Assembly (NCBI GenBank): GCA_036346225.1
Contig: JARFIW010000588.1
Coordinates: forward strand, 4,283,501 to 4,347,500
Length of the DNA: 64,000 nucleotides
Reading direction: 5' to 3'
From: Platerodrilus igneus
Taxonomy: Eukaryota; Arthropoda; Insecta; Coleoptera; Lycidae
This document shows positions 3,330-64,000 of this stretch, piece by piece. How positions within the stretch are numbered: position 1 is the stretch's first letter; every line of letters begins with the position of its first letter. Made by a program: the position numbers and the translations under genes. The notes under the pieces were generated by a model. The model worked only from the letters and a program-made list of their open reading frames with translations, was not told the origin of the DNA and searched no databases.

Positions 3330-4467
3330 TGCATTCTAACTATGTTTTCTCATTGTCTTTTATCATCCTACCTTCCGCCACACGACTCTCTCCTAACTCA
3401 TCACAACGTTGTAGATATTCCAGGAAGATCTCCCTATTTACAATATTTTGAATCATCACATAATGTCTTATCTCTTCTCCAAAATGTCCCGCTAAGTACT
3501 TTATGGTTTGTGTTTCTTCCATAGGAGGATCTAATTGCTTCGCTATACTGAATTTTTGTATGACGTATAACTCCCGTGTAATCCCTAAGTTCTGATTATA
3601 TTTTCCTGTAATTAAATTATCTTGCGCCTTGTATTGTTGATTTCCCCCCCCCCAAATTTTTTTAAAAATCTACTCTCAAATTCCTGAAATGTTCCTATCT
3701 CATTTTCTATTAAGTCAAACCATATTTCCCCGCGCTTCCTTTCAACATTGACCTAACGAAATTTAAATTGTATCTTTCATCCGTTGATCCACGTATTAAT
3801 TTTCTTATATTATTCAAAAATATTTTCGGATTCACCCTGTAGTCTCCGTAAAATTTGGAATATTGCTCAACTGATATTTGCGGTCTATTTATCTTAGTGT
3901 ATTGCCCCTGATTCCTACCAGCACTTTCGAATTCTGATTTTAAATTACCCAATTCTCTATTTACATCATTAAATCATATTTCACAATTTCCTTGAATTTC
4001 CCGCAATTTTTTTAACTAAATCTGTAGTCCGATCATTAGTTTCCTTTTCACACGTTTCCTGATCTAATTTAACTTTCCAAACCTCGTCCCTAACTTTATC
4101 CACATCGTCCATCATTCTAATAAATTTATTTTCAAATTGTACCTGCATTTACGCGATTGTTTGATTCGTTTCTTTTAATCCAACGCTTATAATTTTTATT
4201 TCGGCACCGAGCTTTTCTCCATTTTCCTTAATCTGCATCTTAATATTTTTCATGGTCTCTTCGCTTTTGTCCATTTTTTTATTTAAGGCTAATAAAATTG
4301 ACATCATTTCCTGTTGTTGCGATATGTTGTTCTTCACTTTGACTTCGCATCAATTGTTGCCCTTGTATTTCCATAGATACATCCTGTAAAATTACGCTTT
4401 CTTGGGACCCTATTTCTACCCCTTGGTTTCTTAATGCTTCTCTGGTTTCATTTATTCGTTTATCCAT
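3330..4467 (-). pseudogene. Gypsy-like gag remnant
   Basis: Three minus-strand frames line up. 4149-4467 is the N-terminal charged, helix-prone part starting MDKRINETREALRN. 3710-3952 contains a capsid-like stretch with NPKIFLNNIRKLI and VRSMLKGSAGKYG. 3340-3522 continues with TIKYLAGHFGEEI and FLEYLQRCDELGESR. This arrangement, upstream of the protease on the same strand, is typical of Ty3/Gypsy gag. A C run at about 3646 and other indels break the frame. No zinc-knuckle motif was noticed. Confidence 0.55.
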
Positions 4468-7043: not shown

Positions 7044-8630
7044 TTAAACCGGGGATACACTATCTTGATTTTGAGCATATTTTAAACAAATTTTTTTATC
7101 ACTTAAAACACTTCGAGAACTCAAGTAATTACACACAAACTGAGCAGTAAATAACACCAATAATATCACAAACATAAACACGACAATGAGCATTACATAC
7201 AAAATTTTATTAACAGTTTTAGCAATTTGTAGAACATCTTCTGGGCTCAAATCAGTATCATTCGTAAATTTTGTATCATAAAAATTATCCAACACTTGAT
7301 CTTGTGAAATTACACTTAAGAAATGGTCAAAACTTTTATAATCATAAATTTCTGTATCTATACGCGAACATGCAATTCCATGCAAATTTGGAACATCAAA
7401 ATGATGACTTGGAAAATGAAACCCACCAATTCGTTGATTTAATAATTTGTACATTTGCAACAAGTCTTTACAAGACCAGTAATTGTCATTCAACACCAAA
7501 AGTTTCAATCTATAAAGGTGTTGCATTATTGAATGTAGACTAAATTTCTTAAGTGCATTGTTGCTTATATCAAGTGTCACTAACTTTCCTAATGGTCCCA
7601 AGTGTCCCTCGCCAAAAACGTTCAAATTATTATGTGATATATTAAGACTTACTAAGGTTGCAAGACCCGAAAATATATAACTATCAAGTGTATGAATGGC
7701 ATTCCCAGATAAATCAAGATCTTCGAGTAGGAATAAGCTTGAGAAGATTTTCTGTGGTATTTCTTTGATAACATTGTTTTTAAGTATGAGAGTAGTAAGA
7801 TTGTAAAGTCCACCGAATGAATTTAAAGTTAGTTCTGAAATACGATTGGCTTCTAACGAAAGGTAAGTGAGGTGACGAAGTTGAGAAAATGCATTGCTTT
7901 CGATTTTTTCAATTTTATTACTTGTTAGGTTTAACATTTTTAATTTGCTATTGACTAACTCTTGCTTAAACTTAAATATTTCTATAAAATTCTTTGACAA
8001 ATCAAGCACTTCAATTCCACTCACCAACGCTGTTGACGAAAATACAGTTTTATCAAAAGCATATTCTCCAATTTCAATAATATTGTTTGATGACAAGTTT
8101 AATTTTGTAACATGTAAATCTGAAAAAAGTCCACTGACATTTTGAATATGGTTTCCAGATAAATCCACGATTTTAATGCTTGCATTTTCAAATACTTCAT
8201 GATGCAATTCAGTTAAGTTGTTGTTCCTTAAGGATATCTGCCCAAGCGCTTTAAAATTAAGAAACAACTTTGGTGCAATGGATGAAATTTCATTATCGTT
8301 AAACAACAGTGTTTGGGTATAAGCCTTGTTTGTAAATATATTAACAGCAGTTGAGCTTATTGTATTTAAATGACTATAACTTAAGTCCAATGTGTTTCCT
8401 TTAAAATTACTTAGAGTATTTTCGTCTAATGTAGAGATGCTACAATTTATACACTTAAGAATATGCACAGTTCTTGTAAACTTAGGAAATGAATCTACTA
8501 TGTCTGTGCAAATAATTTGAGCTCCATACGTAGAAAAATAATTATATTGTTTGACCTCTTGGCATTTTTCACAATACACAATCGGTAATAAACAACATAA
8601 TATAAAAAGAACAAACATTTTGTTACTCAT
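7044..8630 (-). CDS. Leucine-rich repeat transmembrane protein
   Basis: Uninterrupted frame. The start chosen is the ATG at 8630, because it is followed at once by a hydrophobic signal peptide (MFVLFILCCLLPIVYC); the frame also opens 30 codons earlier at 8720, but that extension would bury the signal. After a Cys-bearing N-terminal cap come about 13 LRRs (for example VDLSGNHIQNV, KLNLSSNNIIEI, DLDLSGNAIHTL), a C-terminal cap with cysteines, one membrane segment (ILYVMLIVVFMFVILLVLF) and a short tail of about 25 residues ending in PV. The topology is extracellular LRRs with a minimal cytoplasmic tail and no TIR domain, so it is not a Toll receptor. Its ligand and role cannot be told from the sequence. 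It looks like a real, expressed-type host gene, with AT-rich codons like its surroundings. Confidence 0.85.
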   Translation of the reverse strand: MSNKMFVLFILCCLLPIVYCEKCQEVKQYNYFSTYGAQIICTDIVDSFPKFTRTVHILKCINCSISTLDENTLSNFKGNTLDLSYSHLNTISSTAVNIFTNKAYTQTLLFNDNEISSIAPKLFLNFKALGQISLRNNNLTELHHEVFENASIKIVDLSGNHIQNVSGLFSDLHVTKLNLSSNNIIEIGEYAFDKTVFSSTALVSGIEVLDLSKNFIEIFKFKQELVNSKLKMLNLTSNKIEKIESNAFSQLRHLTYLSLEANRISELTLNSFGGLYNLTTLILKNNVIKEIPQKIFSSLFLLEDLDLSGNAIHTLDSYIFSGLATLVSLNISHNNLNVFGEGHLGPLGKLVTLDISNNALKKFSLHSIMQHLYRLKLLVLNDNYWSCKDLLQMYKLLNQRIGGFHFPSHHFDVPNLHGIACSRIDTEIYDYKSFDHFLSVISQDQVLDNFYDTKFTNDTDLSPEDVLQIAKTVNKILYVMLIVVFMFVILLVLFTAQFVCNYLSSRSVLSDKKICLKYAQNQDSVSPV

Positions 8631-8730
8631 ATTAATTGAATACTGAATACTAACCGGCGTTTTTGGTGCAGGAAGTTCTTGATTAAAGATAACCACTAAT
8701 AAATAAATTCCATTACTCACTCACAAACTA

Positions 8731-12009: not shown

Positions 12010-13790
12010 AGCGATTCGATCTCTACCCTAAGACAATGCCAACTTAATTCGCTTTGAAACAACTAAATGTCTCCGACATGCCAAAACTCCTAACAAAAAT
12101 GTGACAAAGCAAGAAATGACGACCTTAAAACACCTACGAACAAACAAGAAAATTGTTATACTACCTGCAAACAAAGGTAATGCTACTGTAATTCTAAACC
12201 GTACAGAATACAAAGAAAAGATTTATCAATTATTACAAGACGGTTCCTACACTCCTATAACAAAAGACCCCACTTCAAAGCTTGAACTGGAAATTTCAGC
12301 ACTTATCAAATTTTCTAATACCTCGTGAATCTAAACCACTCGCCTGTACGGCCTGCCTTCCTAAAGTCCATAAACCTGATGTTCCTCTCCGCCAAATAGT
12401 TAGCACAATTGACTCGCCAACCCACCATCTGGCAAAATACCTAGCAAACTTCTTAAAACCTAATTACGGTAACACCCCTACTAATGTTTTAAACTCCACT
12501 TATTTCATAGAACTAATTGCAAATATTGAGCTAGGCCCAAATGATATACTAGTCAGTTTTGACGGAACGTCCCTATTTACAAATGTACCTGTCATAGACA
12601 CTGTCTCCATTATTAAACAACTCCTACCTCAAGAAAACGAATTTGAGTACTTGGCCACGCTCATTGAAAAATGCTTAACTTCTACCTATTTTGTCTTCGA
12701 AGGACAATTTTACAAACAAACCTTGGGCACACCAAGGGGCTCACCTCTATCCCCTATTGTGGCCAATAGATTCATGGAGTCTATGGAATCCATGGGCTCT
12801 AGAATCCAAGACCTTAAACCAAACACTTGGCTCCGTTATGTAGATGACACTCTTGTAATTTGGCCCAATGAACACCAAACGCTCAATAATTTTCTAGATC
12901 ACATAAGCAATCAACATAAACATATTAAGTTAACTATAGAAATTGAAAAGAACGAAACTCTGTCATTCCTTGACGTTCTGGTGGAGCGCCAACCTAACGG
13001 ACGACTAGGTCATTCCGTATATCGAAAACCCACACACACACACACACACAGACAGATACCTACATATGTCGTCATGTCATCATCATCCCTCACAAAAATC
13101 ATCGGTAATCAACCCTCTAGTCAACCGCGCTATTAAGATTTCACAACCATAACACTTATCTAATGAAATGACCCATCTTAAAACTAGTCTTATAAAAAAG
13201 GGCTATCGTAACTCAGATATCGGCAGAGTAATAAACCAGCATCTGCATCCTACATGAATCCCCAAACCACACTGTAATCCCAATATACGATCTTTAGCAA
13301 TCCTTCCATATATACACATGAGCCTGCACCATAACACAGCTTGGACCCACTCCAGCTCTGAAGCTGTCAGGATCCTCTCCTAGAGCACTTGATGCTAACA
13401 CATACGCCAGAATTGATAACATTCTACCATCTGCTTGCTATAATTTCTATCAACCAAGGACGTTGCTGGCATGCCAGCATCTCCACCTCCAGCCACAGGG
13501 TATCGAAGCAAGGAAATCCTATCCAAGTCACGCTAGGTGTCGAATTGCATTCAGCATAATGATAGACATCATTCTCTACACAAACCAGATCCAGGTCTTC
13601 GTTGTGATGCCACAACATTAAGATCTACAATGTAGAAACGATTCTCACACCTTTACGAACGAAAGTGCTTTCGGTGATTGAAGACATTTGTAATTATCGA
13701 CACAAAGACTTTGTAAATATTTTCTTTGTGCGTCATGCATTTAATGTATAATTAGTTCGTATTTTTAACTTGTAAATAAATGTTGTCTCT
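12010..13790 (+). pseudogene. Penelope-like element copy, plus strand, GIY-YIG mostly lost
   Basis: Frames 12101-12328 and 12282-13136 encode the Penelope RT: NKGNATVILNRTEY, LPKVHKPDVPLRQIVS, DILVSFDGTSLFTNVP, GTPRGSPLSPIVANRF and the catalytic RYVDDTLVIW, then LSFLDVLVERQ and VYRKPTHT. The latter runs into an (AC)n tract at 13030-13050. After that the connector decays (KGYRNSDIGRVINQ near 13200), and the text jumps to a tail motif (SSSEAVRILS near 13360) that normally follows the endonuclease. The start of GIY-YIG is not found. It lies head to head with the minus-strand copy. Confidence 0.8.
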
Positions 13791-28046: not shown

Positions 28047-29930
28047 ATGGCTTTTTCCTCGGTTTCTGATTGTTTCATCTGTAAAAATAGGTTGAGTGAT
28101 ATTGAAGCGGTTTTAGTGAAAGAGAAAGAAGTTAACACTCTTCTGCTATCAAGTATTAAACGTGGGAACCAGAATAATCAACGTTTATAACAGGACTGGG
28201 AAAGATGTTAGTGTGCATAGTGCATGTCAAAAGTGATACAATAATGAGAACTTGATTTAAGCTTTTATTCGTTGCGGTGATGATAATGCTCCTGTCTACT
28301 CTACGAACCCTTAGATCATCTGGTGAAGAATTGACTTTCAAAAATCACTGTGTTTTTTTCGTGGTGAGAAAATTACTGATGAATTTGTGAACAAACAGAA
28401 AAAGCTACCACTTTCAAGAAGTAGTATTGTTCGTGTTGCAACGATGGATAAAGTTAGGATTTCTGTAATGAAAGCAGCGGAAAAGCAGGTTGATAAATTA
28501 AACAAAAGTTATCGATAGATTTGCAAATGTGACAAAATTAGTGGCATATAATGTTATGTCTCACGATTCTTGTCAAAAGCTATGGAATACATATATTTCT
28601 ATCTTGCTAAAAGTTCCTACAAATATTTCCCTTTAAGAGTTAATGAAGCAAATAGAAGGCGATTTTTGTCCTGCTGCAAGAACAGTAAAAGCCTGTCCAT
28701 TTCAAAAATACTAGAAACACAGAGTATAAAATATTCTCTGAGAATGTATCAAAATGAAAAGAGGAATCCCCAGAAAAACGAATAAGAATGGTTGAAACAG
28801 CTTCAGAAATTATTGTGGAAGACATTCATTTGTAGGTTTACTCCACAATAGGATATCCTCCATCTTATCAGTTTTTGAATGAGGTAGAATGTGTCATTCC
28901 AGAAACATTGTTTACATTTTTTAAAGCTGATGTACCGTGAGATAAAAAGGGAAGTATGGATAAATGGATGAAACAGAACATTTCTTTGTCACATGGTGTT
29001 ATTGTTGCGGTTAGATCTCGTTCGTTCTTGTCTTATCTTGATGGTTTGGGAAGGTTTCATGCTAGGGGTGGGATAATGATAATAACTCCTGCAGAAACCC
29101 TAAACCCTGAAGAGGCCACGGAGCACTTGAAAAAACTACCATCGCTTGTTCAGCAAGATAGTTTGATTCAAATTAAAGTTTTTGAAACAAATTAAGATGC
29201 TAGACTGTTGAAATTAAGGATCTTGAATGCCTTTACTAGCTAGAAATGAGATAGTACCATCAACTACTGACATAATATGGCTTTAAGGAAAATTCGAATA
29301 CATGACTCGATCTAGATGGAATGACTTTGTGGAAGAATAAACTTTTACGAGAGATTTCAAATGCTCAAAACTTGTATGCTTTCTTTTTGTCAATGCACCT
29401 CATAATCAATATCATACAGTGGAAACTGCTATATCCTGATTGCCACTGAAAAGTGCAAGAAATTTAAGAGAAAAGCCTGCTTCGTAACATTTGACTAATC
29501 TCTTTATAGTAACACGCAGGAAATAATCCTCAGCTTTCAAAAATCCTGATTTCAGTAATTTCATTGCAAGAGTCGCAGATTTCATTCCTTAATGTCGTCT
29601 ATGGGATCAATAGGAGCAATAATGATAGAGTGGGTTAAAAAACGTTTCGTCTGTGTTTTTGTTAAAACAGCATTGATAAGATTATTTTTAGTCATGCTTA
29701 TTCATGTGCTGTTAGAGCATATTTATTGACTCGCCAAGTTGATTTTAGAAAGTATTGAATTTTTTATAAATAATCGTGCTATTTTGGAAAATTTACTCTC
29801 CAACCTAAACCGATCTGACTGACATTGAAAATGAGAGATTCCAAGCAGTTATAGCTGCTTTACGCACAACAACTTATTGATCAATCTCTAGAACTTAAAA
29901 ATAAGTAGAAAATTGCCAAGAATCTTAATG
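28047..29930 (+). pseudogene. Element 2 protein remnant, N-terminal and central regions
   Basis: Starts ATG at 28047 (MAFSSVSDCFICKNRL), paralleling element 1 SEVCFICNECL, then ESExVxV-like text. A second Cys module follows near 28350 (CFFRGEKI) and a His-Cys pair near 28560 (SHDSCQ, against YHSDCY). 28980-29035 reads ISLSHGVIVAVRSRSF against VSHCIMAAVRPRSF. 29070 reads IMIITP against IQIITP. 29390-29430 reads NAPHNQYHTVETA against the QPASNYNTIYTTL region. 29580-29640 reads RRFHSLMSSMGSIGAIM against GGFHLLMSFFGAIGHIM. More than ten stops and many frameshifts; dead for a long time. Confidence 0.7.
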
Positions 29931-30475
29931 ATCTTGAATAGTTTTACAGGTATCAATTTATTTCCTTTTTTCTGGTTATTTCAGTAGCAAAAACCGTTTT
30001 CAAGGTTTACTTTCTATTTACATACCTTCTACAGATTGCTGACGTAATTTATAGTAATTTAAGTTAGCAAAGTTACACTACCTTAAGTGATTCACAAAAA
30101 TACTAAATAATAAATACCTGACCTCTTAATTATTATAGAAATAAACAAGTTAGTGAACATCTTATAGATTGGTAATTTATATCAAATTATAAAGTTACAA
30201 AAAAATAACCAGAAAATAGATAAAGAATTAGAACATGTTGTGTCAGCTTAAATTGATGAACACTAGTTCTTGAAATTGATCTATAAATTGTATATAATAC
30301 ACACTTTTGAGCCAACCCAAGGTCAACAAATTCTAAAAATTGATCAATAAATTGTTGTGTGTAAAACAGCTTTAGGATTAAAGATTTGCGAATCTGTAAC
30401 TAAATTACAAAATAGAGAACCAAATGCTCAGCTATGGATGGGTAATTGGCCTTTTTACCTGCTTACATCATTGTC

Positions 30476-30990
30476 TTCAGTCCTGGAACTGGTTAGACGC
30501 ATACCTGCATTGTTTCCTATTCTGAGCTAACCTACACATTTTCCTGAAATTCCCACAGTCTACATTTTTCACCAACTGTGTGCAATAGTCTGATCTAGAT
30601 CTACCTCTACCTTTCCTTTTTCCTATTTCTGCTTGTAATATATCCTGTACTAATCCCCAAATGCCTTAAAACGTGTCTTGTCCTTCTATTTCTCCTATTT
30701 CTTTTTTGTTATCTACAGATACCCTTCTTCCTTTACTATTTCTAGAACCTCTTTATTATTAACTTTGTCTGTCCATGGTATCATCCTCATACATCTAGAC
30801 GTCTCATTGCAAAAGGCTTCCACTTTTTTCCCGTGTGTTACTCCTACTGTCTTTATTTCATAGCCCTACAGTACTGTGCTCCACACATATGTTTTAAGCA
30901 ATCTTTTCCTTATTTCTATGTTTGTTGTCTTTGAACATAGTAACTGCTCTTTCTTGTTACTTCAGCTTGGCTCCCCTTCTATTGTTTTCT
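30476..30990 (-). mobile_element. LINE family B fragment B5 (module iii tail)
   Basis: 5'-truncated insertion. Its 3' end is the GAAGACAATGATG-type tail at 30476, and its 5' end lies just past the CCTTCTATTGTT box (30974-30985) that joins modules ii and iii in B2 and B3. It therefore shows that the ii-iii junction exists in a third, independent insertion. Confidence 0.8.
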
Positions 30991-31029
30991 GCATACATTA
31001 AAAATATTATTCCCTTCTTCACGCTGGAA

Positions 31030-31152
31030 GTCATTGCTTTATGCTAAATGTGCCCACCTCTGCCTTCAAGATATATACAATTTGAAAGAAAGGATGGGCC
31101 TTAATGCGTACACCCAAGTTACAACCACGGGGGAATACTTCACAATCACTGC
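31030..31152 (+). pseudogene. Element 2 protein remnant, middle piece
   Basis: Reads LYAKCAHLCLQDIYNLKERM and then GEYFTIT, colinear with element 1 PYAKSAHLYLQDMLQLENLI and GFFTIRRS (about 48195-48300). SINE S1 is inserted at its end. Confidence 0.75.
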
Positions 31153-31446
31153 ATTTGATATTTCTAATTCTCCACTCGAAGGAACTACAATGACCAGAAA
31201 ATGAGTTTTTTTTTGCCTGGAAATTTTGAATTTTGCTGAATTCTTTCTGTTCCAAGCAAGGAATAGATCTTAAGTGTGCGTAACAACGCACAAACATAGT
31301 ACCTACATTTTACCTCATCCAAACAAGGAGGTATTTTTGTGAAAAATGCTTGCTTAACTTTTGTTCAAGCTAACGATGTTGGGATTCGAACTAGGTATCT
31401 TGAGCTCAATAGTCACACACATACCAACTGAGCTACGGAGCCGCCT
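31153..31446 (-). mobile_element. tRNA-derived SINE, copy S1
   Basis: On minus it begins GGCGGCTCCGTAGCTCAGTTGG (A-box region), has AGTTCGAATCCC as B box, then the family body with the TTTTTGTGAAAAATGCTTGC-like segment, ending near TTTGAT-type sequence. The oldest-looking of four copies; target duplication unclear. Confidence 0.8.
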
Positions 31447-31449
31447 GAC

Positions 31450-32117
31450 TACTTTCCAATCGGAAGAACTATAAGTTTTGATCAAGCATATGGTCTGATA
31501 TAACGATTGGGCAAAGTTTGATGAGAAATATGAAAAGTATCTGTTGACTGACTAATGGACAAGGAATAACAGTTAGCATACTAATGAGATGGACCCTAGA
31601 AATGGTAAATCTCCAGAATGTATGTGAAGAAATGAAGGCATACACTAACATAAGTTCAGCTACATTTGTACAACATGTAGACATGAGGACATCTCAGATA
31701 ATAAGAGAGAAGTTGCCAGCTACAAAAAGATACTGTGATGCACCATGTGTTTCGCACTTACCACCAAATCCAGTATGGTTGGGTGTTCAGAAGAATCTGT
31801 TGGAATGGGGATGGATGAAAAGCACTCAAGAACTTGTCCTTTAAGTACCACCAAGGTCTGGCTCTTCAATCTCTTCTCAAATTAATTTCCTGCAGCTGTA
31901 GAAAAGGATGCAACAAGGCTTGTGGCTACAGAAAAGTAGGTAAAGTGCTCCATCATCCAGTAAGCAATGTTGCGAATTTTCAAGATCTTACAGAACGAAG
32001 ATGTGACTGATGATCCAATCCTTTATCTTTTCAAGCCGACTGATAAAAGTGAACCACTTGAACCATCGAGATCAACAACACAGGCGTTCAAAATAAGGAA
32101 ATTGTCATCTTTTCTAT
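31450..32117 (+). pseudogene. Element 2 protein remnant, C-terminal part lacking the nuclease-like region
   Basis: Reads SIWSDITIGQSLMRNMKS, GQGITVSILMRWTLEM and QHVDMRTSQ (element 1: VIEQSMMKSM, ESIISKWIYGM, QHVNARDS). It then jumps directly to LPATK, HHVFRTYHQIQ, a WLG triplet and EWGW (element 1: LHPTSASAYQHLFRVFYQVQ, WLGN, EDWGW). The whole FEN-like segment is thus deleted. It ends with ISCSCRKGCNKACGYRKVG, the cysteine tail. A partial second copy lies at 36608-36838. Confidence 0.7.
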
Positions 32118-35100
32118 TCATCATCATCATTAGGTCTTCAGTCCTAGAACTGGTTGAACGCGTACCCTCATTGTTTCCTAGTCTGAACCAACCTACACAT
32201 TTCCCTAAAATGTGCACAGTCTGAATCTATCCCTATCTGTGTGCTAAAGTCTGATCTCGGTCTACCTCTCTTTTCCTATCCGTGCTTGTAGTATATCCCG
32301 TAGTATTCCCCAGAAATGTCGTAGAACGTATCCTGTCCTTCTATTTCTCCTGATCTGATCTGATCTCGGTCTACCCCTACCTATCTTTTCCTATCTCTGC
32401 TTGTAATATATTCCGTACTATTCCCCAGAAATCCCTTAAAATGTATGCTTTCCTTCTATTTCTCTTATTTTTTCGTTTTCCACAAATATCTTTATTCCTC
32501 TACTATTTCTACAACCTACTTGTTATTAACTTTGTCTGTCCACGCTACCATCCTCATACATCTGAAGCACAACATTCCAAAGGGCTTCTATCTCTTTCTG
32601 TCTGCTTTTCCTACTGCCCCTATTTAATAGATGTACTGTGCTGTGATCCACACTATGTTTTGAATGGTTTTCGTCTTGTATCTATGTTCGTTGTCCTTGA
32701 ACATAGCTGCTGTTCTTTCTTGTTTGATGCAGTTCGGTCACCTTCTATTGTTTTACAGTTATATGCCCTATTTTCCTGATATTCAGTGGTATGTGAAGGA
32801 GGGTAAGCAGCCTTTGGCTGCCAAGTTCCCCCAGCACCTGAACCTTTGTCAAATTAATAGTTTTTCCTATTTATCCTTTTGCACAATCAACATTAGTTGA
32901 AAATATTTCACAACCAACACCTGTGATTGTTTATAATAATCATCAGATTTATGAGCACTCATTTTTTCGTCATTGGGTTTTACGTCATGAAACTGGTTGG
33001 ACTTGTACCTCAGCTTATTTATGTTCTGAGCTAGCTTACACCGTTCCTTGCAATTCTTACAACAGCCGATATACATCTCAATTCCCTTCTATTGTTTTCT
33101 AATTATATGCCTTATTTCACCGAGATTCAGTGGTATGTGAAGGGGGTAAAGCAGCCTGTGGCTGCCAAGGATCCCCCAACACTTAGACATTTGCCGTACT
33201 AATATTTTCAAGTAAATTCTTTCGCACAATTAACATTAGTTGAGACCAATATCTGTAGTTGTTTATAAGAATCACCATGTTTAAGCACAGTTATTATTTT
33301 TGTCATTAGTTTTTCCATCTTGAGACTGGTTGTAAGCGTACCTCCATTGATTTCTATTCTGAGCTAGCCTACACATTTCCCCGAAATTCTCACAGCCTAC
33401 ATCTTTCACTATCTGTGTGCAGTAGTCTAACCCAGGTCTACATTTACTTCTCTTTTTTCCTATCTCTGCTTCTAATATATTTCGCACTATTCCCTCATGT
33501 CTTAGTATGTGGCCTATCATACTATCTCTCCTATTTTTTACTGTTTTCCACATACTTCTTTCTTCCTCTACCATTTCTAGTACCTCTTTGTTCTTAACTT
33601 TGTCTGTCCATGGTATCTTCATCATACGTCTGTAGCACCACATTTCAAAGGCTTCTAGCTTTTTCTTGTGTGCTTCTCCTACTGTCCGGGCTTCACAGCC
33701 ATACAGTGCTGTGCTCCACACATATGTTTTAAGCAATCTTTTCCTTGTTTCTATGTTTGCTGTCTTTGAACACAGTAGTTGGTCTTTCTTGTTAAATGTA
33801 GCACGACCTTGTGCTAATCTTCGTTTTATATCTTTTGTGTTTTTCCCATCTGGCGTTATTTGACTTCCTAGGTTGCAGTAATCCTTAACCTCTTGTAAGT
33901 TCTCGTTACCTGTTTGTATTCTTGTTTTTCATTTATTATCCCCTCTTTTGCATACTAGAACTTTAGTTTTATTTTTGTAAAATTTTCATACCGTTAGAAC
34001 TGTTTCCATTTCATTAAGAGCAGCTTCTAACTCTTCCTTGCTAGATGTTAATACCGTTATATCATTTCCAAATCTAAGCATATCAATTTTTTGTCCCTGC
34101 ATAGTAATTCCAAATGTCTTCCTGCATTTGACAGTATTCATTGCCTCTTCTATGTAGAAGTTAAAAATTAATGGGGATAAAGCACATCCTTGTCTCACCC
34201 CTTTCCTAATATTTACTTCTCTACTTTCTTGCTCTAATTCTATTACTGCTGTTTGCTCTTTGTATAAGCAATGTACTATCCGTCTATCCCTAAAACTCAT
34301 TTCAATCTTTTTGAGTATTTCGAATATTTTTTTCCATTTTACATTGTCGAATGCTTTTTCCAGATCTACAAACCCTATATATACGCTTTTCCCTTTCTCT
34401 ATTGTTTTCTCCATTATCACCCTCAGAGCTAAAATAGCCCCCCCCTGTGTTCACCTATTTCGCCTAAATTCAAATTGATCTTCTCCCAGTATTTCTTCAG
34501 CTAGTTTTTCCATTCGTTTTTGTATAATTGTAGTTAATATTTATGAAACGTTTGCTGTCAAGCTTATTGTTCGAAAATTTTCACATCTATCGGCGCCTCT
34601 TTTTTTGTTTGTATAGTTAATATGATGTTACGTTTGAAATCTTTGGGTATCTCGCCTGTCTCATACATATAGCTTACAAGTTGGAAGAGACGTTCTGTTA
34701 CTGCTTGTCCCCAGTGGCTTTTAGAGTTTTTGCTTGCACCTTATCTGTACCCGGCGCCTTACCATTTTTCAGACCCTTTAATGCTAATTCAAACTCATCT
34801 CTAAGTATAGGATATCCCAGGTCATCCTCTTCAATGTCTGATTCCTGTTCTAATGCTGTTAATTTCTCTCCTGAATATAAATTCCTTATATATTCCTGCC
34901 ATCTAGCTACTTTCTCTACATTTTCTATAACAACATTTCCTCCCGCATCCCTTATATTTTTGCTATATCGTTTTATATCCCTAAAATTCATTCTAATTAA
35001 TTTGTATGCTTCGTCTGTCTTTCCTATTTCCATCTTAGTTTGTACCTTGTTGCACTTTTCACCAATTCATTGTTCTTTAGCTTTCCAGCATTTGCGAATA

Positions 35101-42901: not shown

Positions 42902-44680
42902 TTGTTTTCGAACTTACTTAAAGTCGGTTTGACGCAGCTCTAAATTCTTTTCTATTCTGAGCTAGTCTAAAAAGGTCTACATACCCTTCACAACATAAAT
43001 CTCTAATAATTTGACTAATATAGCTTTGTCTAGGCCTTCCTACTCTATTTTTATTTGGTAGTTTATAATCTAAGACCTTACTAAATAGTCCCTCATGTCT
43101 TAACTGGTGCTCTATCATTCTATCTCTCCTGACCTTTAATTGTTTCCACATACAGGGTTCCTCACCTATACTTCTATAAACTTCCTCGTTTGTTACTCTA
43201 TCTGTCCAACTAATCTTTAACATTCTCCTATAACACCAAGTTTCAAAAGCTTCTATCTTTTTCTTATCTACTTCTTTAATTGTCCAAGTCTCACTACCGT
43301 ATAGTAGAACGCTCCATACGTACGACTTTAAGAAACTTTTTCTATTATCTAAACTAATACTATTAGCTATTAGTAAGTTTTTCTTTTTTAAAAACATTTT
43401 TCTAGCTTGAGCTATTCTAGCTACTATATCCCTTCTGCTACGTCCATCCTTTGTAATTATACTACCTAAATAGCAAAATTCATCTACCTCCTCTAACTCG
43501 GTATTACCTATTTTTAATTTTGGTTTAGAACTAGGCTGTAACTCATTTGTCATTATCTTTGTCTTTACTGAGTTAGTTCTCATACTATAGTTACTCTGTA
43601 GTATCTCATCTAAAATATTTAAAAACTCTCCTAACTCTTTTCTAGACTCTGCTATAATGGCTATATCATCTGCAAAACGTAACATGTCTATTTTCTGTCC
43701 CTGTACACTAATAGCTATTTCTTTTCTCTCTCTCTAGCTAAGTTTAAAGCTTCCTCAATATAAACATTAAAAATCAAGGGAGACAGTATACAACCCTGTC
43801 TAACACCATTTCTAATCTTAGCTTCCTTTTCTATTTCATCAAATCTAATTACTACGCTTTGGTTTTTATATAGACTGTAAATAATTTTTCTATCCCTATG
43901 AGAGTTCCTATTTTTTGCAAAACCCTGAACATAACAATCCAATTAACCCTATCAAATGCTTTTTCTAAATCTACAAACGCGTAATGAGTCTTTTTATTTT
44001 TTGTAACCTTTTTTCGATAATTATCCTAATAATTAGTATCGGTTCTCTAGTCCCTCTGTCTTTACGAAAACCATATTGGTCTTCGCCTAAATAATTCTCA
44101 GTCAAAGCTTCTACTCTATTTTTAATTATCATTGTTAGTATTTTGGAAGCATGAGAAGTTAAACTAACCGTTCTAAAATTCTCACACCTATCAGCTCCTG
44201 ACTTTTTTGGGATTGGAATAATAATATTTTTTTCGAAATCTATTGGAACCTCACCTGTGTCAGATATTACTTTTACTAGTTCATATAATCTGTCTAAAGT
44301 TTTCTGACTTGCATATTTTATTAGTTCTGCGAGAATATCGTCTATCCCTGGCGTTTTATTTAGTTTAAGATCCCTAATAACCCTATCAAATTCCTCTCTT
44401 AATATTGAGAACCCTATTTCTACATCCTCTTCTTGGTCGTTCTCTAACTCATCCATATCGTCTCCCTTATATAAATCTTCTAAATATCTTTTCCATCTAT
44501 CTGCTACCTCAACTTTATTTATTAGAAGCTCATTATTCTCGTCTCTAATACCATTATATTTTTTCCTATCTTTCCCAAAAAACTTTTTAACTACCCTGTA
44601 AGGCTGTCTGTCTAACCTGCTCTCAAATCATCTTGTATTCCCTTACAATTCTCCTCCATCTATTTATTTCTAGCTTTTGG
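42902..44680 (-). mobile_element. LINE family A, copy A2 (RTE/BovB-like), young, 5'-truncated
   Basis: 3' part of the LINE. 42918-43685 is an unbroken frame of 255 codons from MLRFADDIAIIAES (catalytic pair intact) through ETWTIKEVDKKKIEAFETWC and GRPRQSYISQIIRDL to the stop. 43715-43942 carries RNGVRQGCILSPLIFNVYIE. 43971-44456 carries NIIIPIPKKSGADRCENF and GEDQYGFRKDRGTREP. Only a few single-base indels separate the frames. The 5' truncation is at about 44680. It differs from A1 by about 2%. Confidence 0.9.
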
Positions 44681-45275
44681 TTGTTCCAACTAAATTTATT
44701 TAAACGACTAATACGTCATCATGTATTTAAGAAGTTTGACTGGAATTTTTTATTCGTACATTCCTTTATGTTGAATACTCTTGTCCAACTGACAGCGAAC
44801 CAATTTTTTTTCGCTGACAGCAGGATTTGAACCCGCGATTAGTTATTAAAAAACTTTATGAAATTTTATGTATAATTTATTGGTTACATTAGCAGTTAAG
44901 AATTTTCTACACGAATTACTATTTCTTATTTTTGTTTTATTTACAACACTAACTTATATTTTTTATTAAATTCCTTCAATTTTTTTTGCAAGATCTCACA
45001 CTCTTCGTCAACCAAATCAGAGAATGCGACAACACAGTCTAAATGGCAGCAATTCACAATAAATAGCAAATAGCTAAAGGATGGCAAAGACTACTAATAT
45101 TATTGGCTTAGCCATGAAACCCTAACCTAACATCACCACCCAAAATGATGCAGTTTTGATTTTGAATGATTACTGATTTTAATTGGATATTATACTACTG
45201 AATATAATCCAATACATAGACTTGCTTCATTTTATGTTTACTTTGGGCTATACACTGTTTCACCAGAACCTATAA
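44681..45275. other. Spacer left of element 1
   Basis: Contains a lone tRNA B-box-like string on minus (GGGTTCAAATCCTG at about 44822-44836) without an A box, perhaps an old SINE. Otherwise nothing seen. Confidence 0.3.
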
Positions 45276-45585
45276 TCCAGTCAAAATAGACTAAATTATG
45301 ATTCAAGTTTGCATTCATTCCCAACAAGCTGGATTTTTGTGCAGGCTTTGGATGCGTCATTACAAATGACATGTCAAAAGTCCCCATCGATCCCGCTTGT
45401 GCGTTGTTTTTTATTCGAAGTCAAAGGTCACAAATTTGCGTTTTTTGCGTATATCTCTGAAACAATGAGAGCTATCGGAAAAATGGTTTAAACAAAGTTT
45501 GTAGATCGTAAAATTGTCTACAAAAAAGATTTCAACACTTTCTTCTACGGGGCACTGTTCTCGAATTATGGCTATTTTAAACATA
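45276..45585 (+). repeat. Element 1 left terminal inverted repeat
   Basis: Pairs with 50480-50794. The best-matching block is 45320-45545. It carries an inner string AAAGTTTGTAGATCG followed by AAATTGTCTACAAAAAAG. The outermost 40 bases have one 7-base length difference between arms. Confidence 0.85.
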
Positions 45586-45940
45586 GAAAATACGATTATG
45601 CACTCATACGTGGCCAGTATGCATCATCGGGTTAACCATTTGAACAAAAAATATTAGAACATAGTTTTATTTGCCCCATGCACACAAGTACGTGAAAAAT
45701 ATACAATTATGAGTGAGTCATCGTCCGTCCCTAATTCTATTGGGCGGTTGACCTTGAGAAACATCTGCCTGCGACACTACATTCTTCAGGTCGAAACCAG
45801 CGTATACCTGCTTTTGCCGAAGGACATAGCTCTCATATACTAGTAAATACAGTTAGTTTTAAACGATTTTTCGTAGTGAATAGACGTGTTTGTGAATTAT
45901 ATTCTCTTTTTAAACAGTGCCGTTACAAAATTTTGTAAAA

Positions 45941-48900
45941 ATGTCAGAAGTTTGCTTTATTTGCAACGAATGTTTGACTGAAAGTGAAATTGTGGTTGTT
46001 GATCGTGGGCTAAAAACTTTAATGGATTCAAGTACTGAAAGGGGTGATGGATTCGATGAATATTTGAGGGACAAAACATCTGTAACGATACATAAGCAGT
46101 GTCGTAAAGCATACACCCGGAAGAGCAGCATCGTTGCAGCTAAAAGACAGCGTGAGATGGAGATAGCTACCACATCTGGGATTAGTCCTCCTTGTACTAG
46201 AGCACGAGGTAATGAATCATATTTTTGTTTCAAGAAATACTGTTTGTTCTGTGGCAATGAAGCAGATAAAACGGGTGAAATGAAAAAAGCGCAGCATCTT
46301 CGACGAAGAATGTCTCAAGTTTCAACCCTTGACTTCAAGAAAACCATCTTGAAGGAAGCTCAGACTCGTTCTGATGAGCTAGCAAGAAGTGTCATTGCCT
46401 GCATTCAGTATGAATATGACTTAGTTGCTGCCGAGGCTAAGTACCACAGTGATTGTTACACTTCGTTTCTGAAACCCATTAGTGGAGGTAAAATCGGCCG
46501 TCCTGAAAGTGATTCTATTACTTCAGCGATGGAAGAAAGAAATATTTGCATTTATTGAAAATCATGATGATTGTCAATTTTCAATACAAGAATTGAAAGA
46601 TATTTGCAAAGAATCATCGATCGATAATAGAAGCTTGGTATGAGAATAAAAAGCAAAATGAAAAGAAAGAGAGGTTGAGAATACTTGAAGCAGCTGCAGC
46701 AATCGTTCGAGAAGATATTCAGTCGATAGTGTTTGACACTGATAATTATCCTTTATCTACTCAGATGTTCAAAGATATCAATAGCGATATTCCAGAACCT
46801 TTGACTTATTTGTTAGAGCAAATAATTTTGAAAAATAAACGATCCAAATTGGAACACTTGAAATTAATATGTACAAATGTCAGTCACTGTATTATGGCTG
46901 CTGTTCGACCTAGGTCTTTCAAATCACGGTTACAATTGGGTCTCTCAGTGTTTTTTCATCGACGGTTTGGATCAAAACGTCTTATTTAAATTTTTTCATC
47001 TTTTGGTTTGTGTGCATCGTATAATGAAACTATGATGTATGAGGCAGCAGCAGTTCTTCATCGTCCACCTCATATTCTACCACCAGAAACTGAAACAATT
47101 ATTCAATATGCTGCAGACAATGCTGACATCAATGTACATACTCTAGACGGTCATAACACGCTCCACATAATGGGTATCATGCAAATTATAACTCCAAAAA
47201 CAGCAGTTATAGCCGAAAAACCCATATCACGAGTAAACAAAGTCCTTTCAGCGAAAGATTTTGCAGCAAAAGCTCATGTACCGATAAAAGTCTATCAAAA
47301 TGATGGTGCAGTTGGGTATAGTAAAATAGTTGCACAAAATTTTGATTATGAAAGTAGCACAGCAGTATCTTTACTGAAAAAAGTTGATATTTTGTGGTTG
47401 TATGGGAAATGGAAAGATTTACTATTACCTGGTTGGAACGGTTACATCGAACGTTTAACGAGTAATATAATGGATTTTTCAAAGTCTCAAATTCTCTTTT
47501 TACCATTCATTCAGCAACCAGCAAGTAACTACAATACTATCTACACAACTTTACTCTGCGCTTTGGAAAATACAAAACGTTATAATCACAATGTATGCAT
47601 TATTACTTTTGATCAGCCTTTGCATGCAAAAGCTCGAGAAATCGTATCAGCAGCACCTGAAGGATCTGAGGTATCGAAGATCGTAGTAAGACTTGGAGGT
47701 TTCCATTTACTCATGTCTTTTTTTGGAGCAATTGGTCATATTATGCAGGGAAGTGGCATAAAAGAGGTGCTCTCTTTGATTTATGCCACTAATTCATTAG
47801 ACAAAATGTTGAATGGCCATGCTTATGCAAGAGCAGTTAGAGCACACACATTACTCCATCTCACTTTAGCAACAATAATATCAGAAGAACTTGACATCGA
47901 TGAAGAGATGCATGCTAATCTACAAGGTACTGTAGACCTTCTAATGAATAACACAATTTCGTACGTTGATATTGAGAATGGCGATGAGATGGCTGAGGCA
48001 TTACTCGAGCAGTTCAATCAAAAATTAAAGGAATATGAACAACGTGGACCAACTGCAAAATTGTGGACGCAATATTTTCACATGGTATCAATTGCTAAGG
48101 AGTTTATAAGAGCTGAACGTATGGGAGATTGGAAAACTCGTTTGAATAGCATTCGAGAAATGCTTCCTTACTTCCACGCATTAGGACATTTTCCTTATGC
48201 CAAATCTGCACATTTATATCTACAAGATATGCTACAATTGGAAAACTTGATTGATGATTTTGAGGTTTTCGAGAGATTTACACGGGGATTTTTCACAATT
48301 AGACGTTCTAATAAATTGAGTTGTGGAACTTCAACAAATATGGTCATTGAGCAATCGATGATGAAGTCAATGAGAACAGATGGAGGTGTTGCTCGAGGAA
48401 GAAGTACGCAAGAGAGCATCATAAGTAAATGGATTTATGGCATGCATGCAATGAATACTGTGTGAAAGATTGGAGGATTTAGCAGATGTAAGAATGGACA
48501 CAACAGATCAGCATGTCAATGCAAGGGATTCCTGCGGAAAGAGAGATATTGGAGACATCAAGAAACTTCGTGAATAGTTTTCATCACATGATCCTTTTCC
48601 TGAATTGAACAAAATCATGTCCATTGCTAATGGAGTCGTCGGGGATGATAAAATCAATTGCCATAATGCTCGTGAAGTGGGTATTGCATCTATGAGTAAA
48701 ATGATGGGCCAAACATTTAATAATATTAAATTGAAACGTGCTGATAAAGTACTATCTCTATTATCTATGAACAGTACCATGAAGATTCGTGATGAGAAGG
48801 TCCCAATAGATCCTGTATTATTATTTCAACGCATGAGTATTACGAAGACATTTGAAGATGAGCTTGAAAAATTCTTCGAGTACGAATTAACCCCTTACCC

Positions 48901-50286
48901 TTTATCGCTCTTTGATGCAATTGGAATGCGTAAGACACAGAAGTCAGCCATTTATGATTGCTTTGAATGCTTTGATATCAAAAGTGCAAATGCTACCTAC
49001 ATCATCGATGGAGGATACCTGTTACATCGTGTTGTGTGGGATCGAGAGAACACATTTTAGGATATTTTGGACAAATATCTTCAGTATATTCGTAGACACT
49101 TTGGTCATAACATTACTATAATATTTGACGGTTATACTGATTATACGAAAAATATCAAAGCTGGAGAACAACGTCGTCGAGCTAAACAAACATCTTCATC
49201 GTCTAATATCGTTTTTGATCGATCAATGACTGTTCCGACAAACCAACAGCAGTTTCTTGCTAATACTCACAATAAATCTCGTTTGATTTCAATGTTATGT
49301 GAAGAATTTGCAGCTGCCAATATTGTTGTGGAACAAGCTCAAAATGACGCTGATGTCCTCATTATTGAAACCGCAATTGAGCAATTCAGTAGCACCAATC
49401 CAACTATCGTTGTTGGAGAAGATGTAGATTTGTTAATAATCTTAACTGCACGAACACCTAGTGATAAGATCATTTACTTTTTAAAACCTGGGAGAGCTCA
49501 AGTTCAAACGAAAATATATTCTTCACAAAGTTTAACTGCATATCCAAAATGTCAGCCTCATATATTATTTCTTCATGCGATAAATGGCTGCGATACGACA
49601 TCAGCAATTTTCAAAAGAAGCAAAAATACAGTATTCAAATTGTTTGAAAAACGTGAAGACTTAATTGATAACGCAAAAGTATTTACAAATATTAACTCGT
49701 CAGCAGATGTTGTCCTCACCAATGGAATTCGTGTTCTCCTTGCTATGTATGGAGCTCCAAAAAAAAAAATGGAATTGATAGACAAGTATAGATATTTGAG
49801 TTTTGTGAAAAATACAAGAAACGATAAGAGAGTGCAGTTATCTTCTCTCCATCCAACATCTGCTTCTGCTTATCAACACTTGTTTCGTGTGTTCTACCAA
49901 GTGCAAGTGTGGCTAGGCAATGATCTAAATCCTGAAGATTGGGGCTGGAAATTAATGAATAATAGTTTGGAACCAATCTAGACTTTACTGCCACCTGCTC
50001 CAGAAAAATTACTCAATACAATTTTTTGTAATTGCAAAAAGGCTGCACAAACAATTGTGGATGTAGAAAAGTTGGATTGTATTGTTCATCGGTATGTACC
50101 AATTGTCAAGGCCAATCTTGCACCAACATTGAATCAAATGCAACAGATGAAGATTGTTTCGAAATTGATGAGGATATAACTGATATATCTCTCTTCTTGC
50201 AGCAGTCTACACAAATCGAGCAAGAAGAGGAAAAAGACAGTGAAGAAGAAGAAACGAGTGACTATGAAGAATTTGATGATGAATGA
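45941..50286 (+). pseudogene. Element 1 protein: Cys modules, conserved core, FEN/XPG-like region, CXC-like tail
   Basis: ATG at 45941 (MSEVCFICNECL). N-terminal module with CxxC and HxxxC to about 46120, a second Cys/His module at 46234-46470 (CLFCGNEADKT, YHSDCY), and a core at 46675-48465 (NTIYTTLLCALENTKRY, TFDQPLHAKA, LGGFHLLMSFFGAIGHIM, YAKSAHLYLQDM). The nuclease-like region at about 48990-49700 has IIDGGYLLH, IIFDGYTDYTKN, NDADVLIIETAI, VVGEDVDLLIIL and HAINGCDTTSAI. WLGNDLNPEDWGW follows, then the tail FCNCKK, GCTNNCGCRKVGLYCS, CTNCQGQSC and an acidic end. Breaks: frame changes near 46533, 46625, 48470 and 50037, stops at 46987, 48575, 49058 and 49979. Role inferred only: nuclease or transposase of the element. 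Confidence 0.75.
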
Positions 50287-50479
50287 TGATGTAATTTTCT
50301 TGCTGTTAAAATTTTCATTAAATTTAAATAAAAAAAAATTTCATCAATAAAATAGTGTCCCATTACATTCCCTCGATCAAAATATAGTGTGGAGTATTCC
50401 TGCTGGGAAAACCACGTTAAAAAAAAGCGCCGTGTACACTACCTCAGAGGTGGTGTGGAAATGTGTACATATAGTCGAA

Positions 50480-50794
50480 AATACGACTTTCCTGCGGTCT
50501 AAAGTTAGGATATCTCGAAAGCGATGCTTTGTAGAAAAAAAGTGTTGAAATCTTTTTTGTAGACAATTTATCGATCTACAAACTTTGTTTGAACCATTTT
50601 CCGATAGCTCTCGTTGTTTCAGAGATATACGCAAAAAACGCAAATTTGTGACCTTTGACCTCGAATAAAAAACAACGCACAAGCGGGATCGATGGGGACT
50701 TTTGACATATCATTTGTAATGACGTATTAAAGGCCTGCACAAAAATCCAGCTTGTTGGGAATTAATGCAAACTGGAATGTCTATTTTGACTGGA
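50480..50794 (-). repeat. Element 1 right terminal inverted repeat
   Basis: Reverse complement of 45276-45585; see the left arm. Confidence 0.85.
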
Positions 50795-51909
50795 CTACTA
50801 TGAATGCAGAACAACGCAAAACATCGGACACTGAATATGATATTAAGTGGTTGCAAACACTTGACTTCATTTTTCTACGTCTACAACCACATGGTCCAAT
50901 GACTACTTCATCATTCTTAGCTGTATAGAGCCACTACTGAGATAGTGCACACCTTTTATAAGCGCAAGAAGCACAAAAGCACATATTTCCTCTTCAAAAA
51001 ACTTATTTTCCTTTTCCATAAACTCGCATTCCTTATGTATATGGATACATCTTCCTCACAACTACACACTATAGTCGAACAATCTTTCTGTGCTTTTAAA
51101 CTATTGTTTTGGAACTAATTGGAACTATTATCTTGGAACAAAATCACGTACTAGTGCTTTCACTTAAACAATAATATGGAACCAATTATATACTACACCA
51201 ACCATCAATCAATTTTTTCTCAACTTATGTGAACACAAACATTGTTTCATCAATACCAAACAATACGTACTGCTTGCATTCAACAGCTGCAATCATCCTG
51301 AGACTTCGTTAGTCACCTTGATCAAGCACCACCAACTTTTGGTATGAACTTTTACCTATTAACCTTTAAGCCATCATGCATTGACATTTTAAATTATATT
51401 TTGTGTGACGCCTTCATATGCTCGCTCTGATTTACCACTTGTTTACTTTATTTTTTATATTATATTGTATATTGTATTGAATTGTATTTTATCTTAAGTA
51501 TTTTGTGTTTGTACTCATTTATATATTCTTACTTCATGTATATTTCGATAGGGTTTACTTTTTACTTTTACATTTATATTTTAGTTATTTTAAGTGATTA
51601 AACGACATTTAATTCTTTTACGTTTAATCAATTTAAAATTACTTCCGATTAATACTTTAACTTGTATTAACATTGACAGCACCTTTAAGTCATATAATTC
51701 TTTTATGTTTAAAATTTTTAAACTTAACTTTTACAATTTTATTTCTTTTTTCATTTTTTGCAGTGACCAATTGATTTGATTTATTTTGATGTAAATGCCT
51801 TCTTATATACAATTGCCTCCTTGCCAAACTCCTTATATTTTCTTTTCAACTTTTGCTTTACTTTTTAATTTTTAGATTTGGGGTCCAAATTTTTCATGGG
51901 CGGGGCATA
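50795..51909. other. AT-rich intergenic stretch
   Basis: No coding signal, named repeat or inverted repeat recognised. Confidence 0.4.
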
Positions 51910-62549: not shown

Positions 62550-62891
62550 TTGGTTTGAAAATTAACAGAAGTAAAACTAAAGTAATAGTATAAACAAGAG
62601 GGAAGAATAAATCAAAACCAGAATACAAATAAGAAATTAGAATTTACAAGAGATTAAGGATTTTTGAAACTTAGGAAGGTAAATAACACAAGATGGAAAA
62701 GGTGCAAAAAATATAAAACAAAAGTTAGCACAAGGCCCAGGTGTGTTTAACAAGAAAAGGTAATAAATATGTTCAAAGACAATAAGCATGGAAACAAGAA
62801 AAACTGCTGAAAGCATGTGTGTGGAGCACAGCACTCTTCAGCTATGAAACGTGGACAGTAGAAGAAGCGAACAGGAAAAAGATAGAAACTG
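62550..62891 (+). mobile_element. LINE family B piece completing copy B4
   Basis: Resumes with TTTGAAAATTAACAGAAGT and runs through the C-terminal region (homologous to 33620-33990 of B3 on minus), ending at about 62891. Broken by several indels; the 3' modules are absent. Confidence 0.75.
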
Positions 62892-64000
62892 AAGTGATCT
62901 GTAGTGTTTTTAAGTCGATTTCTCATTGGTTGATAGTTATTGCAAATAGTATAGTGTATATTTCGATATTTAAAGGTATTTGTTAGAATAGCTCGGTAAC
63001 CACTTGCAAGTTTCTGAACACATTCCGTGACGTCAGAATTTACATTATATGGGGCACATGTGTAGAGGGAGTCGAGCGAGTTGACAGGGTTAAAAGCACT
63101 TTGTTTTTAGGTTTCAAAATGGCAGGTCGAAAAACTTTCCTTGACGGTAAATTAAACATAGTGCTTTATAAGTTTATATTGTAGCTGCTATTTAAGGTAA
63201 TCTAATTACATCTTGAAATGTCAACTTTGTTTTGAGGGTGATTTTGGTATTTGTAAACCGTTACTTATTTAATCATTGAAGGATATATTTATGGGTTACC
63301 TGTTGCTTTTGACTTAAAATTTGATGTAGATTGTTTAATATATGTAATTTCAGGTATATTTACAATTTTATTGAATATGTTTTATGTCAAAAGGTGTGTT
63401 ATTTGGTTTAATAACCGAAAACTAATATTTATTTATTTAAATTGTTTATTTAATATCTAAATCAGAGTAAAACTAATATTTATTTATCTGTTTATTTAGT
63501 ATTTAATACCGAGTTCGAACTTCCATTGCATTGCCCTTATTGTAGAATCAATAGTAAATGTACCCTTACTGTAATTTTACGAGCAATTTGTACCAACATC
63601 ATTTCCTTAGATATATTGAATTAAATTGTTAGGCAGGTTTGAATATGAACAGCATTATATTTTATATTTATATTTGTTTTGGTTTTAAGATCGTAATTGA
63701 ATTAACCACAACGTTGTGTATATTTTTTGTTTATAATTTGTAATGCCACAATGTGTTTAATTGTCTAAAAGGTACGTTTTAACCGATGCAATCATAATGA
63801 ATAAATTTTTGCTTACTAGATTTAATATATTTAACTAACATGCACTTATATAAAGATTTAGCGCCTGAATCTGGGCTTGTTTTTATGCTGTAGAATTTAG
63901 GATGTGTTTTGCTGCCAACATATATTATATTTGTTTGATATTTGTGATTAATTTGACATTTTTATTATGTGTAATTGTTTTATTTTCAGCATGTTAATCA
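62892..64000. other. AT-rich right end
   Basis: No gene, repeat family or RNA gene recognised. Confidence 0.4.

Follow-up and report, generated by a model that had tools for sequence, protein, structure and literature searches.

The window, a stretch of 64,000 nucleotides from contig JARFIW010000588.1 of Platerodrilus igneus, contains at 45273-50797 on the forward strand an element of 5525 bp that begins with TAATCC and ends with GGACTA. Its limits are set by the ends common to its genomic copies, beyond which the flanks differ. Two terminal inverted repeats (TIRs) of about 270 bp, at 45273-45548 (forward) and 50531-50797 (reverse), enclose one gene. They are 91% identical (252 identities, 14 mismatches, gaps at 11 positions), with a score of 436 against 31 for the highest of 200 mononucleotide shuffles. 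The 16-nt tip, without mismatch, has only two sites in the window, namely the two ends of the element. The highly alike inverted ends around a single gene, given as about 300 bp in a preliminary description made from the letters of the DNA, are thus real.

That description had placed the element at 45276-50794; an element does lie there, and each of its ends was drawn 3 nt too short. The terminal bases, TAA on the left and CTA on the right, are common to the copies and the adjoining outer 3 bp vary, so that the element occupies 45273-50797 with CTA on both sides. These triplets, at 45270-45272 and 50798-50800, are the target duplication, as identified by copy comparison and empty sites. The sequence TCCAGTC is ruled out as the terminus, as the copies have three further nucleotides in common at each side. 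Directly to the left of the element, frames resembling a LINE reverse transcriptase were recognised by eye at 42918-44627 on the reverse strand.

The gene lies on the forward strand in several frame pieces. The N-terminal one (45941-46537) contains two Cys-rich modules of CxxC...HxxC types, recognised by eye, and ends in a frame change at about 46537. The long core follows in one frame (46612-48459), with a TAA at 46987 and, near 46631, a 113-nt deletion relative to the other long copies. A FEN/XPG-like piece (48461-50042) has TAG stops at 48575, 49058 and 49979; a CXC-like Cys cluster (50035-50136) comes after a frame change near 50040. The order of modules reported earlier, from Cys modules through long core and FEN-like acids to CXC-like tail, was found in the frame.

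We searched the window's own genome (2,713,902,556 bases, 2.71 Gb) with the left 365 bp of the element. Out of 176 candidate left ends, 40 were scored, the window's included, and all 40 are 96-100% identical. Close reading covered 21 copies, the window and the 20 best-matching of the 39 other scored ones; old copies are under-represented in this set because the best-matching ones were taken. The left end is common to all 20 other copies and the right end to 19 of them, the exception being L035, and the same interior occurs in pieces in 20/20. The preliminary description had reckoned with copies devoid of shared ends, or with the TIR pair around unrelated sequence, as evidence against it; what we found instead were common ends and a common interior.

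Both ends are present in 20 of the 21 copies. The left terminus is TAATCC in 20/21 (TTATCC in L044), and the right terminus is GGACTA in all except L035. A perfect 3-bp target duplication flanks 19/21 copies, and the sequence of the triplet differs by copy; a constant-length duplication had been proposed as a check, and the single 4-bp case among the 21 is L048, with AGAG. L035, whose right end has been lost, has no duplication. L048 (298-6575) also has about 650 bp of extra sequence inserted near element position 590. Counting the window, the 21 copies comprise 13 long ones of 5.5-6.3 kb and 8 of 1.7-3.9 kb with internal deletions. Pairwise identity among the 13 long copies is 97.3-99.4% (mean 97.6%), as would be expected after a recent burst of amplification.

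The majority frame of the 13 long copies is a single open reading frame of 1495 codons. Compared with it, the frame of the window copy is interrupted by four in-frame stops and shifted by four indels, the 113-nt deletion among them, which bears out the single long broken frame noticed earlier. The family had been called autonomous. With its frame broken the window copy is non-autonomous, and it is a dead copy; the long copies are broken in all 13 cases, by 1-4 stops and 2-12 frame-shifting indels each. Changes found in single long copies are spread nearly evenly over the codon positions (195/168/167), and those found in several copies (41/23/24) have no third-position excess either. The 13 long copies thus bear no mark of selection on the protein.

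Empty sites were sought in the same genome with the joined flanks of the window element (45160-45272 and 50801-50919). The window element is inserted within another repeat: of 96 candidates, 40 were scored, all matching at 83-92% across the junction. In the four junctions that were read (L104-L107), a single TTA takes the place of the CTA-flanked element of the window. Another copy, L047, has an empty counterpart inside L045 at 3541-3811, with one CCA versus a pair of CCG. The preliminary description had called for comparison with empty sites, and a single trinucleotide was thus found for the window insertion (4/4 read) and for L047, in both cases within the same genome. The counterpart of L035 lies in the window itself, near 62889-63411; its junction is not clean, in agreement with the loss of the right end of L035.

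Copies with both ends, short duplications and single-trinucleotide empty sites establish the element as part of a TIR (cut-and-paste-type) DNA transposon family with one long multidomain gene, as had been suggested. Chance inverted repeats round a host gene are ruled out, as is a segmental duplication, by the presence of copies on many contigs, by the differing duplications and by the empty sites.

No Pfam model passes the cut-off for any part of the protein, in the window frame pieces or in those of L039, L040 and L048. Likewise, no NCBIfam family passes the cut-off for the protein, sequence searches of the PDB gave no convincing chain match, and the viral contigs, prokaryote genomes and plasmids searched gave nothing useful. 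Two structure models, that of the core among them, came out with low confidence (pLDDT 34.6 and 42.2). In the core we take D 47146, D 47611 and E 48349 as candidate DDE acids, on the pattern of other DDE transposases. They are kept in 13/13 long copies, a constancy that says little because these copies are 97-99% alike. By the placement of these acids, the long core is a candidate DDE-type transposase. The non-canonical mobilising enzyme proposed in the preliminary description is possible, yet a DDE-type core helped by the FEN-like part is more likely, the candidate acids being placed in DDE-like fashion.

The FEN/XPG-like acids, at 49007, 49127, 49346, 49352, 49421, 49427 and 49592 on the forward strand, were identified by motif comparison with archaeal FEN1. 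They share with FEN1/XPG nucleases the order and spacing of seven acids, in the motifs D, FDG, [DE]x[DE], DxD and GxD: the intervals are 40/73/2/23/2/55 here and 53/72/2/19/2/61 in the archaeal FEN1 L051. Among the 13 long copies, 11 to 13 retain these acids. The ordered motif, composed after the sequence had been seen, matches 45 of a set of 49 archaeal FEN1 proteins and none of 20,000 shuffles; when loosened, it matches 2 of 20,000. These 49 proteins, what remains of 53 loci once four partial or cut ones were left out, also served as a profile. Against it, the FEN-like regions of the window and of L048 score no better than shuffles, two of which score higher, and hhalign finds no match between the profile and the FEN-like region, so that the likeness is to be read as a motif-level statement. 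Unlike these nucleases, with which it has no profile-level similarity as judged by archaeal FEN1, the region is part of a transposon protein. A literature search for at least four of transposon, FEN1, XPG, DDE transposase, CXC and TIRs together found no paper, which does not imply that the family is absent from Repbase.

A broken older relative of the same protein lies in the window at about 28758-31941 on the forward strand, perhaps from 28071, where the match to the N-terminal Cys region is weak (E 0.23). Its core pieces are 26-34% identical to those of the element, and its C-terminal piece with the CXC-like cluster 36%; the best E-values are 2.9e-11, 2.2e-10, 6.9e-6 and 1.1e-4. The motifs LDG and TFD are retained, and a G stands at the place of the candidate DDE glutamate. 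In this degraded copy the FEN-like part was not found, the match jumping over it between 31694 and 31732. Several diverged direct-repeat families, with copies 60-86% alike, occupy 30460-33823, and a reverse-transcriptase-like frame, recognised by eye, adjoins them at 33281-33928 on the minus strand.

Two lineages of the Academ superfamily, the nuclease-coding AcademX and the helicase-coding AcademH, are distinguished in the relevant passages of PMC10045372, which cites Kojima 2020 for AcademX. According to these passages, target duplications are 3 or 4 bp in AcademX and 9 or 10 bp in AcademH; the authors relate this length to the encoded nuclease or helicase and suggest that the two go together. 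Academ is listed among the superfamilies with a DDD/E transposase in PMC9587614, and in the curated bivalve library of PMC10294476 Academ elements average 5565 bp.

The present element resembles AcademX, as far as those passages describe it, in its TIRs (both ends in 20/21 copies), its length of about 5.5 kb, its duplications (3 bp in 19/21 copies, 4 bp in 1/21), its one long protein with a putative nuclease, here of FEN/XPG type by motif, and the lack of a recognised helicase. No Pfam helicase family was found in the window frame pieces (E up to 1) or in the pieces of L039, L040 and L048 (E up to 5). Duplications of 3-4 bp, a putative nuclease and the lack of any recognised helicase together fit AcademX as PMC10045372 describes it. 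On these descriptions we regard the element as a dead copy of a TIR transposon family that most likely belongs to AcademX. It would probably represent a new family of this already described lineage. The nuclease of AcademX is of the XPG type.

AcademH, named in the same superfamily, is also like the present family in being a TIR element with a long protein. The 9 or 10 bp duplications and the helicase that it has, according to PMC10045372, are not seen here, where duplications are of 3 bp and no Pfam helicase matches; AcademH is ruled out on these two grounds, and membership of any other known superfamily is equally next to inconceivable. A TIR transposon class so far unnamed, resembling AcademX in nothing but duplication length and nuclease, is rather improbable. 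It would agree with the lack of a match to any known profile, and the assignment to AcademX follows published descriptions; duplication length, nuclease motif, size and the lack of a recognised helicase nevertheless all fit AcademX, or Academ at large, as these are described.

Mobilisation by the FEN-like domain itself, in a protein that has no DDE core, is highly unlikely. The seven acids are placed as in FEN1, the DDE acids are candidates only and the core matches no family model, all of which would suit such an arrangement. The core, however, is the longest part of the protein, and it is retained in the older relative, itself a degraded copy, where no FEN part was detected. The joining of DNA strands is moreover not a known activity of FEN nucleases, which speaks against this domain as the mobiliser.

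With AcademX as the preferred class, the long core would act as an RNase H-fold DDE transposase and would bind the element ends, aided by the Cys modules and by the CXC-like tail. It would free the ends and insert them into target DNA by joining at a 3-nt stagger. The FEN/XPG-like domain beside it may trim either 5' flaps or the strand that is not transferred, at the element ends or at the gapped insertion. Full-length copies, now decayed, would have mobilised the internally deleted ones in trans. A further reading seems doubtful to us: the transposase would depend on this nuclease for catalysis, namely for cutting the non-transferred strand, so that a DDE core and a flap nuclease would divide the work of transposition within one polypeptide. 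The family is well bounded and recently amplified, with clean 3-bp duplications and empty sites, which makes it useful for testing the role of the AcademX-type nuclease.

Elsewhere in the window, a frame at 12261-13136 on the forward strand resembles by eye a reverse transcriptase, perhaps of the Penelope type. A frame of 558 codons at 7044-8720 on the reverse strand resembles by eye a leucine-rich-repeat membrane protein and is possibly a host gene.
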